Below, piece after piece: positions 11,127 through 51,810 of a DNA stretch of 55,144 nucleotides. Numbering within the stretch: position 1 is the stretch's first letter; every line of letters starts with the position of its first letter. The stretch spans positions 1-55,144 of the forward strand of contig CASFXA010000107.1 of the NCBI GenBank assembly GCA_949298535.1. The letters run 5' to 3'. A model generated the notes under the pieces. The model was given only the letters and a program-made list of their open reading frames with translations. It ran no database searches and was not told the DNA's origin. The position numbers were made by a program, and so were the translations under genes. Origin of the DNA: an uncultured Oscillospiraceae bacterium. GTDB taxonomy: Bacteria > Bacillota > Clostridia > Oscillospirales > Ruminococcaceae.

Positions 11127-12104
11127 ATGCGGACTATAAAATATATCATTTCCGATGAAGACGCGGGAAAAAAGGTGGAAGAATTTCTGATGAAGAAGCA
11201 GGGATTTTCCCGCCGCGTTATCACCGCGCTGAAAAAGCTGCCGGAGGGGATGCTCCTCAATGGGGTTCATATACGAACAGTGGATGCGCTTCATGCCGGG
11301 GACCAATTGGAAGTAAACCTGCCGGAGACAGCCAAAAGGATGCCTTTGTGCCACATCCCGGTGGAGGTTCTTTTGGAAGACGAAGATGTGATTGTTTACA
11401 ATAAACCGGCCGGGATGCCGGTACACCAGTCCGGGGGACATATTTTCGGCACACTGGACGGCGTTTATGCTGCCCACTGCGCCGCGGCGGGCCAGGTGAC
11501 ACCCTTCCGCCCCATTAATCGTCTGGATAAGGACACCACAGGAGCGGTGGTGGCAGCCCGGAATCAAATTGCTGCGGGAAAGCTGTGGAAAGCGGTAACC
11601 AAACGGTATATAGCGGTGGTGGCGGGGATCCCCCGCTATCCCCGCCGCCTCATCCGGCTGCCTATAGAGCGGGAAAGACCCATGGAGCTGAAGCGGATTG
11701 TCACACCGGAGGGACAGGATGCCGTCACCTGGTATCGCGTATTGGGGGAGGGGCGGGATTGCGCCCTGCTGGAATTTCTGCTCTATACCGGAAGAACCCA
11801 TCAAATTCGGGTTCATATGGCCTGCCTGGGTCATCCCCTTTTGGGGGATCCCCTGTACGGTGTTCCCAGCGAAGAAATAGATCGGCAGGCGCTTCACTGC
11901 GCCCGGATTTCATTCCCCCACCCTCTCACCGGGGAGCAAACAACGGTGGACGCGCCGCCGCCAGAGGACTTTTTGAAGCTGCTGAAAAGGCGGGGGCTCA
12001 CCTGGGATTTTGACTGTCTGACCAAGGAACAGCCTCCTTTGGAGGAACTGGAGAAGGATTTTATTGTACCCAAAGGGGAAATTTTTTTGCCTCAGGACTC
12101 TTGA
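11127..12104 (+). CDS. RluA-family RNA pseudouridine synthase
   Basis: This enzyme isomerises specific uridines of rRNA or tRNA to pseudouridine. The 325-residue protein has an N-terminal S4 RNA-binding domain (about residues 1-65, including KKVEEFL and FSRRVI). The RluA catalytic domain follows, with PINRLDKDTTG, where the Asp is the catalytic nucleophile of the HRLDxxTSG motif. Later YTGRTHQIRVHMA and GHPLLGDPLYG are conserved in the family. ATG 11127 has AAGAAGGG about eight to nine bases upstream; ATG 11106 lacks a properly spaced site. Its stop codon overlaps the -35 box of the T-box operon promoter, so the two units are tightly packed but separately started. The target RNA cannot be told from the sequence. 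Confidence 0.93.
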   Translation: MRTIKYIISDEDAGKKVEEFLMKKQGFSRRVITALKKLPEGMLLNGVHIRTVDALHAGDQLEVNLPETAKRMPLCHIPVEVLLEDEDVIVYNKPAGMPVHQSGGHIFGTLDGVYAAHCAAAGQVTPFRPINRLDKDTTGAVVAARNQIAAGKLWKAVTKRYIAVVAGIPRYPRRLIRLPIERERPMELKRIVTPEGQDAVTWYRVLGEGRDCALLEFLLYTGRTHQIRVHMACLGHPLLGDPLYGVPSEEIDRQALHCARISFPHPLTGEQTTVDAPPPEDFLKLLKRRGLTWDFDCLTKEQPPLEELEKDFIVPKGEIFLPQDS

Positions 12105-12129
12105 CAACCGGAAACAAAGCTGATAAGAT
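12101..12129 (+). promoter_or_regulatory. Consensus promoter for the T-box operon
   Basis: TTGACA (12101-12106) and TAAGAT (12124-12129) are spaced by 17 bp. The -35 box overlaps the stop codon of the preceding gene. Transcription should start near 12136, at the beginning of the T-box leader. Confidence 0.85.
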
Positions 12130-12135
12130 AGGAGA

Positions 12136-12400
12136 AAATTAAAAAACAGAACACGATGACGGAGAGTAGTAGCACCCACGCGAAACCTTACAGAGAGCTG
12201 CGGCAGCTGAAAAGCAGCGGTATTCGGGGATGTGAACTGGCTCCCGAGTGGTCAACCGAACAAAGTAGGCTTGGACGCATCTCCAGCGTTAACGGGAGGC
12301 TGTGTTGTTGGACACAGACAGAGGGGGCGGTTTTTGCCGCCAACAGAAGTGGTACCGCGGAAGTTTATAGCTTTCGTCTTCTTTGCAGAGGACGAAGGCT
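12136..12400 (+). promoter_or_regulatory. T-box leader, leucine (CUG) specifier
   Basis: This leader RNA binds uncharged tRNA to prevent termination. Stem I begins GATGACGGAGAGTAGTA, which includes the AGUA loop-E strand, and contains AGAGAG. The opposite strand of the specifier loop reads GAA-CUG-G-CUCC, in which CUCC pairs with GGAG of the 5' strand. By the known layout (GAA, codon, purine, helix), the codon is CUG, leucine. The T-box core is AGTGGTACCGCGG (12348-12360), followed by a terminator hairpin at 12369-12390 with a T run to 12395. An alternative one-base shift would read UGG (Trp), but this leaves no purine before the helix. The first downstream gene is an acyl-CoA synthetase. Confidence 0.9.
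12369..12400 (+). terminator. T-box-controlled terminator
   Basis: The AGCTTTCGTC arm pairs with GACGAAGGCT (one G-U pair), followed by TTTTTGTTTT. The hairpin lies right after the T-box core, as expected for the terminator competing with the antiterminator. Confidence 0.85.
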
Positions 12401-12486
12401 TTTTTGTTTTCTCCTCTGCTTCCAGCCGTTGCCGCCTTCTTCCTTCGGGAAGGAGGAGGCGCACAAACAGATTGGAGGAAGAAACA

Positions 12487-14148
12487 ATGAGCAAGCAGGA
12501 ACTGATTTCAATTACCGTAGGCGATCTCCTGGAGCAGGTAGCCAATCGCTTTCCGGATAAGGAAGCGGTGAAATACACGGACCGGGATTACCGCCGCACC
12601 TGGCGGGAGTTTGACGATGAAGTGGATCGCATCGCCAAAGGCATGATGGCCCATGGGATTCAAAAGGGCGACAAGGTGGCTATCTGGGCCACCAACGTGC
12701 CGGAATGGCTGCTGACCTTCTTTGCGTCTGCCAAGGTGGGCGCCGTGCTGGTGACGGTGAATACCGCTTACAAAGTGTTTGAGCTGGAGTATTTGCTGCG
12801 GCAGTCGGATACCAAGATGCTGGTGATGATTGACCGCTTCAAGGACGCCGACTATGTGGAAATTGTTCAGAGCCTTTGCAAGGGTCTGGGCAAGGAGGGA
12901 CAGAAGCTCAATCCCATGCTGCCTTACTTGGAGGAGATCGTTTACGCCGGAGGCGGGGAATGTCCTGAGGGCATGACTCCCTGGAAACAGCTGGAGGCGG
13001 ATGGGGAGAAGATTTCCACGGCGGAATATGAAGCCCGGAAATATTCCATCGATCCCCAGGATGTGGTGAATATGCAGTACACTTCCGGCACCACCGGCTT
13101 CCCCAAAGGCGTGATGCTCACCCATTACAACATCGTCAACAATGGACGCAGCATCGGCGACTGCATGAAATTCACTGAGAATGACAAGCTGTGCATCGTG
13201 GTACCCTTCTTCCACTGCTTCGGCATGGTGCTGGCAGTGATGGCCTGCCTGACCCACAGCACTTCCATGGTGCCGGTGGATCTTTATTCCCCGGTGAAAG
13301 TGATGCACGCCATCACCTCCGAGCGGTGTACGGCATTTCATGGAGTGCCTACCATGTACATCGCCATGCTGGAGCATCCGGATTTCTCAAAATATGATTT
13401 CACCTGCCTGCGCACCGGCATCATGGCCGGATCCCCCTGTCCCATCAAGGTGATGCAGCAGGTGGTGGATCAGATGCACATGAAGGAAATCACCATCACC
13501 TATGGTCAGACAGAAGCCTCTCCCGCCACCACCATGACCACCACCGAGGACAGCATCGAGCTGCGGGTAAGCACAGTGGGGCGGTCCATGCCCTTTGTGG
13601 AAACCAAGATCATCGATCCTGAAACCGGCGAAACCCTGGGACCTGGCCAGCCTGGCGAATTTTGCTCCAGAGGCTACAACACCATGAAGGGATACTATAA
13701 AATGGAGGAAGCAACCCGTCAGGTTATCGATAAAGACGGCTGGCTTCACTCCGGAGACCTTGCAACTGTGGACGAAAAAGGGTATTATAAGATTACCGGA
13801 AGAATCAAGGATATGATTATCCGCGGTGGAGAGAATATCTATCCCAAGGAGATCGAGGAATTTCTGTATACCCTGCCTCAGGTCCAGGACGTTCAGGTAA
13901 TCGGCGTACCCAGCAAACAATATGGGGAAGAAGTGATGGCCTGCATCATCCTCAAGGAAAAGGGTTCCTGCACCGAAGATGAGATTAAGGCGGCTGTCAA
14001 AAGCCACATGGCGCGGCATAAAGTGCCTAAATACATCGCCTTTATGGACGAATTCCCCATGACCGCCAGCGGAAAGATTCAGAAATTCCGTTTGAGGGAA
14101 TGGGCGGTGGAACAGTTCGGCCTTGACGACTCCGTGGAAACTGCGTAA
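12487..14148 (+). CDS. Acyl-CoA synthetase (AMP-binding, YngI/ACSF2-like)
   Basis: This enzyme activates a carboxylic acid with ATP to an acyl-adenylate and then to acyl-CoA. The 553 residues show the P-loop-like YTSGTTGFPKG (about residue 198), then YGQTEAS, the SGDLA aspartate (about 421), GRIKDMIIRGGENIYP, and SGKIQK with the catalytic lysine near the C terminus. Overall it resembles the medium/short-chain ACSF2 group, which includes Bacillus YngI of a leucine/isovalerate gene cluster. ATG 12487 has GGAGGA seven bases before it; the frame upstream runs through the T-box and is not coding. It is the first gene behind a leucine-type T-box, which suggests a leucine-related substrate such as isovalerate. 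Long-chain fatty acids cannot be excluded. Confidence 0.93.
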   Translation: MSKQELISITVGDLLEQVANRFPDKEAVKYTDRDYRRTWREFDDEVDRIAKGMMAHGIQKGDKVAIWATNVPEWLLTFFASAKVGAVLVTVNTAYKVFELEYLLRQSDTKMLVMIDRFKDADYVEIVQSLCKGLGKEGQKLNPMLPYLEEIVYAGGGECPEGMTPWKQLEADGEKISTAEYEARKYSIDPQDVVNMQYTSGTTGFPKGVMLTHYNIVNNGRSIGDCMKFTENDKLCIVVPFFHCFGMVLAVMACLTHSTSMVPVDLYSPVKVMHAITSERCTAFHGVPTMYIAMLEHPDFSKYDFTCLRTGIMAGSPCPIKVMQQVVDQMHMKEITITYGQTEASPATTMTTTEDSIELRVSTVGRSMPFVETKIIDPETGETLGPGQPGEFCSRGYNTMKGYYKMEEATRQVIDKDGWLHSGDLATVDEKGYYKITGRIKDMIIRGGENIYPKEIEEFLYTLPQVQDVQVIGVPSKQYGEEVMACIILKEKGSCTEDEIKAAVKSHMARHKVPKYIAFMDEFPMTASGKIQKFRLREWAVEQFGLDDSVETA

Positions 14149-14175
14149 TGTAACGCTGAAATTGGAGTGAGGCGC

Positions 14176-15837
14176 ATGGACAAGACAAAAAAGCTCTGCA
14201 TGGGCTGTATGGCTCCGCTGGAAACCGGGGTTACAGTCTGTCCTCATTGCGCCCACGACAATCAGATTCCCAATCCCAAAGGCGCCCTGTCTGCCGGAAC
14301 AATACTGGCGGGAACCTATTTGGTTGGAACCGTGATCCATCAAAATGATTTGACGATTCTTTATCTGGGTTACCATTTGCAGAAGAATATCAGGGTATAT
14401 ATTGAGGAGTTCTTCCCCCAATCCCTGGCCTGCCGCCAAGAGGACGGCGCAGGGGTACAGGTGGAGGAACACAATCGGATTCGTTATGCTACCCTGTATT
14501 CGGATCTTTCTGATCGGTGGAAGCGCCTGGGACGAATGGACAGCCGTTGCTTGCTGAAAACCAGAGAACTGCTGCAATGGGGAGAAACGCAGTATCGGGT
14601 GACCTCCTATGTAGGGTGGCATACCCTGGAGGAATGGCTGGACGAGGAGGGGCCCATGACCTGGCCCCAGGCCCGCACAGCACTGATGCCGCTGATGACG
14701 CTGGTGTCCTCTCTGCACAATCAGGGAATGTTCCATTGCGGCATTGCCCCGGACAATATCCTTTTAAGCAAACGGGGGCATATGGTACTCACCGGCTTCT
14801 CTCTGCCGGAGGTGCGTACTGTGGGAAGCGGGCTGACGGCGGAGCTTTACGGAGGATACAGCGCCCCGGAACAGTATTCCAACAATCTCTGGCAGGGGGA
14901 ATGGACCGACGTCTACTCCCTGGGCGCGGTGCTGTACCGGATGCTGACAGGAAAGGAACCATTGCCCGCGCTTCAGCGGGAGCGTCGGGATCCTTTAAAG
15001 GATGCGGTGGAGGAGAATCCTACCATTCCTCAATATGTCTCTGACGCCATTGCCAAAGCTATGCGTCCTTCCAAGAAGGACCGCTATCAATCGGTGGACG
15101 AGTTTACGGCGGCATTGTTGGAGGAATCCTCCTCCAATACGGCGGTGTTTCATCCGGAGGTTCCGGAAACAAAATCATCCGACTCCCTCGCCAAAGAGGA
15201 AACGGGCAAACGGCGGAACAATTTCTGGCCCATCGCCTTGGCGGTCAGTGCCATTGTGAACCTGGTATTGTTGGGGCTGCTGTTTTCGGCGCCCGGAAGC
15301 GTAACGATGGAGCCTGAGGAACCTGACATGGAGCAGGAAGAAGAGGTTCCTTTGATGGAATATCAGCTGGTGGGAGTATATTATCCCTTTGTGCAGCAGA
15401 ATTTAAACTTATTCGGGAGCTTCTCCTACGAGGCTCAGTACGAATATAACGAAATTTATCCTGAAGATGTTATTTTTGAGCAGTCCGTCACCATAGGGCA
15501 ACCCTTGCCAGAGAATGAGACCATTCAGCTGAAGGTGAGCAAGGGTTCACAGTATGTAACAATGCCCTACCTGATCGGCAGTTCTCAGGATTTTGCCAGC
15601 CGGATTTTAACCAATCTGGAAGTGGACTATGAATTTGTCTATGACTTTAATTCTGAGAGCGATGGGATTCCTGGAACGGTGATTGCCTCCAATAAAGGCT
15701 ACAACGCCCGCATCTCCCGGGAAAAGGATCAGGTGATCCTGACCATCAAACAGATTCCGGAGGAGTCGGAAGATTCCGATGAGGAGGAGTCCTCTGTCGG
15801 TGGAGAATATTCCTACAGCAGACCGGAAAAAGATTGA
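14176..15837 (+). CDS. Zinc-ribbon pseudokinase with transmembrane helix and PASTA repeats
   Basis: The 553-residue protein has an N-terminal zinc ribbon (C8xxC11...C22xxC25) and a protein-kinase-like fold (about 40-320). One membrane helix (about 352-375) and two extracellular PASTA-like domains follow. It resembles Hanks-type PASTA kinases, but the catalytic residues are missing. The glycine loop is absent, the ATP lysine of VAIKE is Glu (VYIEE, residue 77), HRD is HCG (187-189), and DFG is TGF (206-208). Scaffold motifs such as PDNILL, SAPEQY and TDVYSLG remain. It is therefore probably a signalling pseudokinase that senses cell-wall material. ATG 14176 follows GGAG by eight bases. The gene lies 27 bp after the acyl-CoA synthetase and probably shares its T-box transcript. 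Confidence 0.88.
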   Translation: MDKTKKLCMGCMAPLETGVTVCPHCAHDNQIPNPKGALSAGTILAGTYLVGTVIHQNDLTILYLGYHLQKNIRVYIEEFFPQSLACRQEDGAGVQVEEHNRIRYATLYSDLSDRWKRLGRMDSRCLLKTRELLQWGETQYRVTSYVGWHTLEEWLDEEGPMTWPQARTALMPLMTLVSSLHNQGMFHCGIAPDNILLSKRGHMVLTGFSLPEVRTVGSGLTAELYGGYSAPEQYSNNLWQGEWTDVYSLGAVLYRMLTGKEPLPALQRERRDPLKDAVEENPTIPQYVSDAIAKAMRPSKKDRYQSVDEFTAALLEESSSNTAVFHPEVPETKSSDSLAKEETGKRRNNFWPIALAVSAIVNLVLLGLLFSAPGSVTMEPEEPDMEQEEEVPLMEYQLVGVYYPFVQQNLNLFGSFSYEAQYEYNEIYPEDVIFEQSVTIGQPLPENETIQLKVSKGSQYVTMPYLIGSSQDFASRILTNLEVDYEFVYDFNSESDGIPGTVIASNKGYNARISREKDQVILTIKQIPEESEDSDEEESSVGGEYSYSRPEKD

Positions 15838-15909
15838 TTGCCGCGGATAAAAGCTGTGTTGGAGAGAGATCGGACACTCATGCCACCAAGACAAAAGGAG
15901 TTGATTGCG

Positions 15910-16719
15910 ATGAAGTTTGCTTTTTCTACCATTGGGTGCCCCAACTGGACCTGGAAAGAAATTTTTGCCACTGCCAAGGATATGAAAATCGATGGAATAG
16001 AGATCCGGGGAATCGGAAAGGAGATCTATGCCCCCCGGGTCCCGGAGCTGAGTCCGGAGCAAGCCCCTGAGACCCTGCGGAGCTTAAAGGAAGCGGGGCT
16101 GGAGATCCCCACTCTCACCTCCGGAGCTGTAATCGGTTTTCCGGAGCAGCTGGAACAGGGGATGAAGGAGGCAAAAGATTATCTGGAGCTGGCGGGACGG
16201 CTGAAGGTACCCTATGTCCGGATCATGATTTCCCCTCAGCCCCAGCCGGAACCGGTGGATCTGGAGATGGCGAAGAAGGCGTATCTGGAGCTGGTGGATT
16301 ATGCCAAGGAAAAAGGGACCTGCGCGCTGATTGAAACCAACGGCGTTCTGGCTGATTCCACCACCATGGCCCGCTTTATGGAGGGAACCGATCCTCAGGC
16401 AGCCGGCGTATTGTGGGATTTCCATCATCCCTACCGGTTCTGCAACGAGGCCCCGGAGGTTACCTTTAAAAATATTGGCCGCTATGTCAAATATACCCAT
16501 GTGAAGGATTCGGTGTTCCACGATGGAAAGGTGGAATATCGGATGATGGGTTATGGCGATCTGCCGGTATTTGATATTCTTAAACTGCTGAAGTCCAACG
16601 GCTATGAAGGTTTCATTACCTTGGAGTGGGTCAAACGGTGGAACCAAGACCTGCAGGAACCCGGCATTGTCTTCTATCACTACAACACTTATATGAATTA
16701 CCTGATGGAGCAGATCTGA
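15910..16719 (+). CDS. Sugar phosphate isomerase/epimerase-like TIM-barrel protein
   Basis: The 269 residues fit the xylose-isomerase-like TIM-barrel superfamily (IolE/AP-endonuclease-2 fold). Landmarks are FSTIGCPNWTWKE at the N terminus, DGIEIRGIGKE on strand 2, ALIETNG, VLWDFHHPYRF, YTHVKDS and FITLEWV. The conserved Glu, Asp, His and Glu residues would coordinate a metal and act on a sugar or polyol. ATG 15910 has AAAAGGAG nine bases upstream. The gene is 72 bp after the pseudokinase and just before a strong terminator, so it is probably the last gene of the T-box operon. Members of this family have many substrates, and none can be assigned here. Confidence 0.88.
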   Translation: MKFAFSTIGCPNWTWKEIFATAKDMKIDGIEIRGIGKEIYAPRVPELSPEQAPETLRSLKEAGLEIPTLTSGAVIGFPEQLEQGMKEAKDYLELAGRLKVPYVRIMISPQPQPEPVDLEMAKKAYLELVDYAKEKGTCALIETNGVLADSTTMARFMEGTDPQAAGVLWDFHHPYRFCNEAPEVTFKNIGRYVKYTHVKDSVFHDGKVEYRMMGYGDLPVFDILKLLKSNGYEGFITLEWVKRWNQDLQEPGIVFYHYNTYMNYLMEQI

Positions 16720-16737
16720 TTTCCCTGCCCCTGATGG

Positions 16738-16784
16738 AAAGCCCCCGGCGGAGCCAGAAGAACGGTTCCGCCGGGGGCTTTTTG
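16738..16784 (+). terminator. Terminator of the acyl-CoA synthetase operon
   Basis: A 13-bp GC-rich stem (16740-16752 with 16767-16779) is followed by a T run. Confidence 0.9.
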
Positions 16785-16934
16785 TCAGCTTCAGCGCGAA
16801 AAACGCCGGCCTCGCTGGCAAGAATAAAAATCTTCCGGGAGCAGGATCCGACAGCGTTGGCCGGTCCCTTATTCCATCTTATCCATGCCTTGGACATAAC
16901 CGGGATAACGCTTTCTCTCCGGCTGCCACATACA

Positions 16935-16985
16935 AAACAGCCCTTCCTGAAAAATTTCTTCTTCAGAAAGGACTGTTTTTTATTT
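16935..16985 (-). terminator. Terminator of the ROK kinase gene (bidirectional)
   Basis: A hairpin with arms around AACAGCCCTTCCTGAA and TTCAGAAAGGACTGTT is flanked by AAAA on the left and TTTTT on the right. It lies just beyond the stop codon of the minus-strand ROK gene. Confidence 0.85.
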
Positions 16986-16993
16986 TCTCTTTC

Positions 16994-17932
16994 TCATTGC
17001 CGGGCAAACAATGCCGCGCCGATGATTCCCGCGTCATTGCCCAGCTGGCAGACTTCAATTCTTGTCACACGCCCATCCCCCATAGGGAACTGATCCGCCT
17101 GGACCAGTTTGCGCAAAGGCGCCAGCAGTATCTCCCCTGCCCCGCTGATTCCGCCGCCAACGCAAACCATCTCCGGCTGCACCAGGTTGACAATATTGGT
17201 AATACCGCAGGCCACATAATGGACATAGGCGTCAAACACCTCTTTGGCCGTGGCATCCCCCAGCGCCAAAGCATCGAACAAAGTTTTGCCCGCCACGTTT
17301 TCCAGCTCTCCGCCGCATACTTCCCACAGGCGGGATTGAGGGGCCTTGACCATAGCGATCTTGGTCTGGCGAATCAGGGCCGTGGCAGAAGCATAGGCCT
17401 CGAAACAGCCCTTCCGTCCACAGGTGCAGGGCTCGCCGTCGTAAACAATCACCATGTGTCCGCCTTCCCCAGGACGAATTACCCCCCCTGGAAGCACTAC
17501 GCCGCATCCCACTCCGGTGCCCAACGTAATGGTGACTGCAGAAGCGGCCCCTCTGGCGGCGCCTGCCACCACTTCGCCGTAAGCCGCCGCGTCGGCGTCA
17601 TTGAGGACAACTGTGTGCATTCCCAAACGCTTGCTCAGTTCCTCCGCCATGGGGGCGTTGCGCAAGCCCAGATTTCCCGCGAAAACAATCACACCATTGT
17701 CCATATCAATCTGACCGGGACTGCCCAGCCCCACGCCGGCCACCTCTGTTGGGGCCAACGTCATATCCTCCATCAGCTGCCGGCAAAGGGCGGCGATTGC
17801 TTCCGCCAGCTGTCCGCAAGGGACATTTTTGGGGGTAGGGGTGGACATCTTCCGCAGCAGTCGGGCTTCCTCATCCACAATGCCTACCGCGATATTGGTG
17901 CCGCCCAGGTCGATTCCCAGATAGTGCTTCAT
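16994..17932 (-). CDS. ROK-family sugar kinase (glucokinase-like)
   Basis: This cytoplasmic kinase phosphorylates a hexose, probably glucose, with ATP. The 312 residues start with the phosphate-binding LGIDLGGTNIAVG. They continue with LNDADAAAYGE (the catalytic Asp), TLGTGVGCGVV, GEGGHMV, the ROK zinc motif CTCGRKGCFE (one histidine and three cysteines bind zinc), and the adenine-binding CVGGGIS. ATG 17932 has TTGGAG eight bases upstream; a GTG three codons earlier would overlap that site. It is transcribed alone from a promoter at 18128-18156 with a leader of about 190 nt, and ends at 16935-16985. Glucokinase is the likeliest role; ManNAc or fructose kinases are alternatives. Confidence 0.93.
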   Translation of the reverse strand: MKHYLGIDLGGTNIAVGIVDEEARLLRKMSTPTPKNVPCGQLAEAIAALCRQLMEDMTLAPTEVAGVGLGSPGQIDMDNGVIVFAGNLGLRNAPMAEELSKRLGMHTVVLNDADAAAYGEVVAGAARGAASAVTITLGTGVGCGVVLPGGVIRPGEGGHMVIVYDGEPCTCGRKGCFEAYASATALIRQTKIAMVKAPQSRLWEVCGGELENVAGKTLFDALALGDATAKEVFDAYVHYVACGITNIVNLVQPEMVCVGGGISGAGEILLAPLRKLVQADQFPMGDGRVTRIEVCQLGNDAGIIGAALFARQ

Positions 17933-23267: not shown

Positions 23268-23280
23268 AAAAAGGAACAAA

Positions 23281-23442
23281 ATCCTCGAGCCAGTTTTCCT
23301 ACGGGACCGCCTATGGAAAACTGGCCGGATGGTTTTACCGCCGTCCAAAGGGTGTTCCGGGAAACCGGGGCGCCTTCCGTTTTGAAAAGGGGAGCGCAGC
23401 GGGCTTATTCTGCCTGTCCCGTCCCCGGGGCAGGTTTTTTTA
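23281..23442 (+). promoter_or_regulatory. Molybdenum cofactor (Moco) riboswitch candidate with terminator
   Basis: The leader begins CCTCGAGCC and has a 10-bp stem (CCAGTTTTCC with GGAAAACTGG). GGCCGGATGG and ACCGCCGTCC follow, then AAAGGGTGTTCCGGGAAACCGGGGCGCC, split here as AAAGGGTGTTCC and GGGAAACCGGGGCGCC. These match my recollection of the conserved Moco RNA motif, including its tetraloop arm. An 8-bp terminator stem (23413-23420 with 23427-23434) and seven T residues follow. All the genes behind it make molybdopterin or import molybdate, so cofactor-dependent termination is expected. A covariance-model search would settle the assignment. Confidence 0.8.
23413..23441 (+). terminator. Terminator of the Moco riboswitch
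   Basis: CCTGTCCC pairs with GGGGCAGG (one U-G pair), followed by TTTTTTT. It lies 70 bp before the first gene of the operon, as expected for an attenuator. Confidence 0.85.
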
Positions 23443-51445: not shown

Positions 51446-51453
51446 ATTTTTTT

Positions 51454-51796
51454 GAGTGGACCGGACAGCAGCGGGGGCAGCGCCGAAAGGCCGTCCATGA
51501 GGAAAGTCCGAGCTTCGCAGGGCAGGATAGCTGTTAACGGCAGCCGGAGGCGACTCCAGGGACAGTGCAACAGAGAGATACCGCCGGGCTTTCGGTCCGG
51601 CAAGGGTGGAAAGGCGGGGTAAGAGCCCACCAGCCTGCGGGAGACCGCAGGGCTATGTAAACCCTATCCGAAGCAACACCGCACAGGGACCAATACGGCG
51701 GCCCGTCGGGTCCCGATCAGGTGGCTTGAGCCATGGGGCGACCCATGGCCTAGATAGATTGTTGTCTAAAACAAAACTCGGCTTACAGGTCCACTC
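51454..51796 (+). ncRNA. rnpB: RNase P RNA (bacterial type A)
   Basis: This is the catalytic RNA of ribonuclease P, which removes 5' leaders of tRNA precursors. The ends GAGTGGAC and GTCCACTC form helix P1. Conserved blocks are GAGGAAAGTCCGAGCTTCGC, CAGGGACAGTGCAACAGAGA, GGTAAGAGCCCACC, GAAGCAACACC and the final AGATAGATTGTTGTC near P4. The length of about 343 nt and the P-helix order match the A-type architecture. It has its own promoter and terminator. Confidence 0.97.
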
Positions 51797-51810
51797 ACCC
51801 TGTAAACCTC

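Follow-up and report, generated by a model that had tools for sequence, protein, structure and literature searches.

We analyzed a 55,144-nt stretch of DNA, referred to here as the window, from an uncultured Oscillospiraceae bacterium (contig CASFXA010000107.1, assembly GCA_949298535.1). The window contains a T-box leader RNA with a leucine specifier, positioned ahead of the gene for an AMP-binding acyl-coenzyme A (CoA) synthetase, P0001; two genes on the same strand, encoding a kinase-like protein and a TIM barrel, come after it (Table 1). Here, we describe the leader, its conservation among relatives of P0001, and three further ligases of the same genome under T-boxes for valine, isoleucine, and tyrosine. 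We then consider whether these enzymes activate acids from which the matching amino acids could be rebuilt.

A leucine T-box ahead of an acyl-CoA synthetase gene

The leader matches the Rfam T-box family RF00230 over model positions 1–219 (E 1.6e-23; gathering score, 93). It has a specifier framed by stem I, a UGGN core, and a terminator opposed by an alternative antiterminator, the latter taken from the Rfam alignment of the leader. The RNA fold of 12342–12413 has a z of −2.9, and a GGAGG motif at 12474–12478 lies upstream of the synthetase ATG at 12487. We firmly assign the leader to RF00230. The promoter-like site ahead of it is the best of six such sites in 11900–17100; since shuffled sequence gives 3.5, their number is no evidence by itself. 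P0001 has two domains above cut-off, PF00501 (324.4 bits) and PF13193 (66.5 bits), which places it in the ANL superfamily.

An initial annotation of this DNA had described a complete T-box leader with promoter, core, and terminator, and had read the specifier as leucine (GAA-CUG-G before the helix strand). The anatomy and the Rfam match bear out the leader, and CUG is the reading given by both the sequence and our specifier script; the script’s second reading, ACU (threonine), lies one base earlier and has a lower score. The observation of this leader and gene is confirmed. The annotated interval, 12101–14148, correctly takes in leader and synthetase, but its end falls short, given the two same-strand genes that follow.

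Table 1 Features of the leader, the synthetase gene, and the genes behind it (window coordinates)
Feature	Position	Strand	Details
Promoter-like site TTGACA-17-TAAGAT	12101–12129	+	10/12 consensus matches; consensus match only
T-box leader (leucine)	12147–12384	+	RF00230, 110.2 bits, above gathering score
Stem I lower helix	GGAG 12161–12164 with CUCC 12241–12244	+	Compensatory changes in 20-leader alignment
Specifier CUG (leucine)	12237–12239	+	GAA 12234–12236 before, G 12240 after; sequence and script reading
UGGU of T-box bulge (tRNA acceptor end)	12350–12353	+	Sequence; inside RF00230 match
Intrinsic terminator hairpin	12369–12400	+	14 pairs, then T-run
AMP-binding acyl-CoA synthetase P0001, proposed isovalerate-CoA ligase	12487–14148	+	553 amino acids (aa); candidate substrate
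Ser/Thr kinase-like gene with PASTA domain	14167–15837	+	PF00069 59.6 bits, PF03793 40.3 bits
Xylose-isomerase-like TIM barrel	15910–16719	+	PF01261 86.2 bits
Terminator-like site after TIM barrel gene	16764–16779	+	7 such sites found, 5.9 expected

Conservation of the leader and its specifier

A scan of genome contigs found 194 loci with relatives of P0001, and the following results concern the best 80 (L numbers). The closest relative, at 97%, is from Angelakisella massiliensis. A T-box is present at 33 of the 80 loci: a search for the core motif within 700 nt revealed 24 of these, Rfam added eight (L041, L049, L054–L057, L059, and L060), and the core motif within 1,500 nt added L061. Rfam was run on 57 of the loci and, for L018, on its genome, the remaining 22 having motif scans only; scores above gathering support 28 of the 33 T-boxes directly and that of L018 via the whole-genome search, while those of L020, L036, L039, and L061 are core motif only. 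No Rfam T-box was seen at E 0.01 at L052, L053, or L058, and a core match at L028, which has no Rfam T-box, was judged to be chance. Since the T-box is kept at 33 of 80 loci, the pairing of leader and gene goes beyond chance.

Specifiers were read by a script implementing the TBDB rule, i.e., bases 2–4 before the bulge end, as stated in the portion of the TBDB paper available to us (PMC7778990). In a control with synthetase leaders from two genomes, the top reading was correct in 8 of 14 cases (tyrS, valS, and thrS, 2/2 each; pheS and alaS, 1/2 each; serS, 0/2, with the correct codon ranked second; cysS, 0/2). For this reason, we also weighed conservation and inspection by eye in assigning specifiers. 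The leucine specifiers of L041, L049, and L074 were read by eye, and CUC at L060 is the script’s second choice. All 32 readable specifiers are leucine codons (24 CUC and 8 CUG), the leader of L036 being cut off.

The structure of the leader is conserved as well. When 20 leaders (the window’s and those of 19 relatives) were aligned, compensatory changes were seen at 35 of 54 consensus pairs, and G-C and A-U replace one another in the helix that frames the specifier. On a tree of 62 enzymes, 33 of them with a T-box (the window’s and those of 32 relatives, with L039 excluded as partial), the T-box label changes at least seven times; four of these changes are forced by well-supported branches. The T-box rows of the tree include Oscillospiraceae, Acutalibacteraceae, and Caldicoprobacter.

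Two other RNA features were observed at these loci. In Caldicoprobacter algeriensis, 6S RNA and two tRNAs lie just upstream of the T-box (L051:2987-3460). At L045:8155-8406, a T-box of 81 bits, under the gathering score, is positioned behind the synthetase homologue and serves another gene.

Four T-box ligase units in one genome

At E 0.001, 14 T-boxes were found in the window’s genome, which is 86% complete in 180 contigs; four of them precede genes for AMP-binding proteins. The specifiers of these four are CUG (leucine; P0001), GUA (valine; C24), AUC (isoleucine; C174), and UAC (tyrosine; C167). The finding is therefore larger than first noted, with four specifier-matched ligase units rather than one. 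Assuming 20 ligases per 2400 genes, four of 14 T-boxes would fall on ligases by chance with p about 3e-6. A. massiliensis has an identical set of 14 T-boxes, including the same four ligase units. The targets of the other ten, with the proteins read by eye, include tyrS, valS, pheS, alaS, cysS, thrS, a Met-type ABC, a Trp-type ABC, and an asparagine-synthase-like gene; one T-box is at a contig end, and its counterpart in A. massiliensis belongs to serS. Among the 14, leucine and isoleucine specifiers occur on ligases only.

The units differ in their other genes. A sodium:solute symporter gene lies behind the tyrosine-unit ligase, and in the isoleucine unit, a helix-turn-helix/cupin gene comes before the ligase (L096:7231-9525). 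For the tyrosine unit, CUA (leucine) was also considered as the specifier; because A. massiliensis keeps UAC while the CUA frame becomes AUA, UAC was chosen. The valine T-box on the ligase (L002/L004 leaders, C24 and C130) resembles the valS T-box, as if copied.

Sister ligases across the order

We searched 245 genomes of the order for the three sister ligases and inspected the best 30 loci for each. The valine ligase matches in 160 genomes at 1e-150; all five loci with ≥62% identity carry a GUA T-box, and the core scan found none at the 25 with ≤57% identity. The isoleucine ligase matches in 126 genomes at 1e-200, with a T-box at two loci, both AUC; open frames of about 750–850 aa around the ligase were seen in many of its relatives, and are perhaps fusions. 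The tyrosine ligase matches in 89 genomes at 1e-150, with a T-box at 16 loci (14 UAC and 2 UUC) and a symporter after the ligase at eight. Specifiers were read by eye at L152 (isoleucine) and at L189, L191, L193, L195, L200, and L210 (tyrosine/phenylalanine); the UAC readings of L193, L195, and L200 are less sure, as the script’s top choice there was ACA, shifted one base downstream. Core-like matches at L135 and L165 were considered chance occurrences. L188 and L192 have UAC and UUC, respectively, in similar loops, and this switch between tyrosine and phenylalanine points to an aryl acid as the substrate.

Pathway context

Neither the window’s genome nor A. massiliensis has an IlvD-family match, and all 14 control genomes have one. 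Each of the two genomes has a single aconitase-family frame, of 767 and 778 aa, respectively; these are too long for LeuC, so neither genome has a LeuC-sized protein, size being our own means of telling LeuC from aconitase. LeuA, CimA, VorB (540.4 bits; cut-off, 399), and IorA are above curated cut-offs in the window’s genome. Adjacent LeuA and CimA genes were observed at L211:7989-11068 (C44), in a genome without an IlvD match or a LeuC-sized protein.

Synthetase neighbors were examined at 14 loci, one with a T-box (L051) and 13 without, including L047. At four of these (L063, L068, L084, and L094), the synthetase gene is next to one for an acyl-CoA dehydrogenase-like protein, and a carboxyltransferase-like gene is nearby at L068 and L084. 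L084, whose homologue has no T-box, adds enoyl-CoA hydratase-like and HMG-CoA-lyase-like genes, so that its neighborhood looks like a cluster for isovalerate/leucine degradation; all of these assignments are under NCBIfam cut-offs.

A model for amino acid salvage from fermentation acids

T-boxes switch genes on in shortage, which favors a biosynthetic over a catabolic direction. The leader would act by transcription attenuation: while tRNA-Leu is charged, the terminator would form and the genes behind it would be off. Uncharged tRNA-Leu would pair through its anticodon with CUG and through its 3′ end with UGGU, stabilizing the antiterminator and allowing the synthetase to be made. P0001 would then convert isovalerate to isovaleryl-CoA, a 2-oxoacid:ferredoxin oxidoreductase would carboxylate this to 2-oxoisocaproate, and a transaminase would yield leucine. 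The same logic may apply to the sister units, with isobutyrate the probable acid for valine, 2-methylbutyrate for isoleucine, and an arylacetate for tyrosine (phenylalanine in some relatives), where the symporter lies behind the ligase. We consider this salvage of isovalerate to leucine, with each acid activated and reductively carboxylated and each ligase under its own uncharged tRNA, the best reading of the data, at a probability of roughly two in three. The choice of isovalerate is supported indirectly, by the sister ligases with valine, isoleucine, and tyrosine specifiers, by the lack of IlvD and of a LeuC-sized protein, by VorB and IorA, and by the L084 cluster. The initial annotation had suggested that the enzyme could activate isovalerate or a related branched acid when tRNA-Leu is uncharged. 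Two of the outcomes that it listed as refuting, a specifier other than leucine and a leader-gene pair not conserved in relatives, were not observed; its interpretation is thus partly supported, with isovalerate still a proposed substrate.

Several observations weigh against salvage. LeuA and CimA are present, the VorB gene is not near the ligase, and tRNA-Leu was not found in the window or in 15 loci scanned, tRNA-Leu(CAG) not having been sought genome-wide. No isovalerate-type neighbors were seen at 10 of the 14 loci examined, which are non-T-box or distant loci. Prephenate dehydrogenase is found in the window’s genome, in A. massiliensis, and in 25 of the 31 genomes in which it was sought, so the tyrosine unit is not there to make up for a missing step. 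Among 48 of the 80 genomes with the ligase, many of them drafts, the T-box is not associated with loss of either pathway enzyme: IlvD is present in 16 of 33 genomes with a T-box and 10 of 15 without (p 0.35), and for a LeuC-sized frame, the corresponding counts are 12 and 4 (p 0.74), with the contig-edge cases G263 and G265 scored as lacking LeuC. Replacement of a lost pathway therefore does not by itself explain the ligase. An apparent link to LeuC loss (LeuC-sized frame in 3/24 versus 13/24) proved to be an artifact of the 700-nt scan, which overlooked the T-boxes of L041, L049, L054–L057, and L059–L061, later recovered by Rfam and the 1,500-nt scan. Lastly, the model assigns no role to the conserved TIM barrel or to the kinase.

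The downstream genes and a possible alternative substrate

The kinase-PASTA gene, which sits between the synthetase and TIM barrel genes, is present at 16 of 32 relatives’ loci examined. The TIM barrel is a separate gene at 19 of the 32, directly after the synthetase at L030, L031, L033, and L038, and is fused to the N terminus of the synthetase at three loci (L052:3137-5662, L058:3200-5665, and L061:3140-5665). At L054–L057, L059, and L060, which are near L061 in the tree, the T-box lies about 950–1200 nt ahead of the synthetase homology, as expected for a TIM-barrel fusion. The residues that probably bind metal do not vary among 17 TIM barrels, and the predicted structure (pLDDT, 96) has sugar isomerases and epimerases as its nearest folds. 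The terminator-like site behind this gene is weak, given the number of such sites expected.

This close association suggests an alternative, namely, that P0001 activates another acid of a leucine-linked route and that the TIM barrel makes or consumes this acid or its CoA ester. However, the valine, isoleucine, and tyrosine units have no TIM barrel in the stretches read, with a symporter or helix-turn-helix/cupin gene instead, and we know of no leucine route that uses such an enzyme. We regard this alternative as unlikely.

Three other RNA features of the window are a Moco (molybdenum/tungsten) riboswitch match of 77 bits at 23271–23408 (+), RNase P RNA (281 bits) at 51453–51801 (+), and tRNA-Ser(GGA) at 206–297 (−).

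Membrane lipids, generic ligases, and wider significance

The best NCBIfam model for the valine and isoleucine ligases is MbcS (NF047394), at 412.5 and 489 bits, respectively, against a cut-off of 850. In the available portion of a study of Staphylococcus aureus, MbcS serves branched-chain fatty acid synthesis and is selective for 2-methylbutyrate and isobutyrate, and poor with isovalerate (PMC10026030). Accordingly, P0001 might supply isovaleryl-CoA as a primer for branched-chain membrane fatty acids, with leucine shortage sensed because leucine is the usual primer source. On the other hand, a tyrosine/phenylalanine ligase would not yield a membrane primer, and individual switches for three branched acids suit amino acids better; we give the primer function low odds. 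The poor activity of MbcS on isovalerate would be consistent with leucine having an enzyme of its own.

Another reading, very improbable in our view, is that P0001 is a common type of ligase for medium- or long-chain fatty acids and that its T-box was captured with no metabolic link to leucine. In favor of it, the nearest NCBIfam models of P0001 are generic fatty-acid ligases, every one under its cut-off, and a structure search with its predicted fold returned 4-coumarate-ligase-like proteins that do not narrow the substrate. Against it, all 32 readable leaders, from several clostridial families, specify leucine, and the sister ligases carry other matching specifiers.

According to the part of a review at hand (PMC7356843), it has long been reported that branched-chain volatile fatty acids serve gut anaerobes as growth factors and amino acid precursors. 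If the salvage model is correct, the specifier codon offers each ligase a candidate substrate (isovalerate, isobutyrate, 2-methylbutyrate, or an arylacetate), which would aid annotation of a large enzyme family whose members have vague names, and Oscillospirales are predicted to be cross-fed by protein fermenters. We know of no gene or regulator that has been established for the step in which the acid is activated. With somewhat less assurance than for the leucine route itself, we favor the broader view that a T-box regulon of dedicated acid:CoA ligases (leucine, valine, isoleucine, and tyrosine or phenylalanine) lets Oscillospirales rebuild amino acids on demand from the fermentation acids of other microbes, and that the leucine branch includes a hitherto undescribed enzyme, the TIM barrel that adjoins the synthetase or is fused to it.

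Comparison with known systems

The window’s leader resembles leucine-class members of RF00230 in its full-length match, stem I, specifier loop, UGGU core, and terminator. It uses CUG, whereas most relatives use CUC, the commonest leucine specifier in TBDB (74%, in the portion of PMC7778990 available). In the accessible part of a study of Geobacter, a leucine T-box is described on leuA (PMC2700814); here, the target is an acyl-CoA synthetase. A literature search covering few subscription journals returned no publication connecting a T-box with an acyl-CoA ligase.

Among protein models, P0001 is most like PRK12583 (NF009233), which matches residues 4–545 at 788.2 bits, under the cut-off of 832, and states no substrates. 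MbcS, the top model for the valine and isoleucine ligases, differs in that both score under its cut-off and P0001 is on another branch; the term “T-box” does not occur in the available text of the MbcS study (PMC10026030).

The closest metabolic parallel comes from the rumen, where, in the part of the review at hand (PMC7356843), isovalerate, 2-methylbutyrate, isobutyrate, and phenylacetate are precursors of leucine, isoleucine, valine, and phenylalanine, with leucine made by direct carboxylation of isovalerate, then amination. The proposed chemistry is alike; the evidence there is from cultures and here is from genes and RNA switches.

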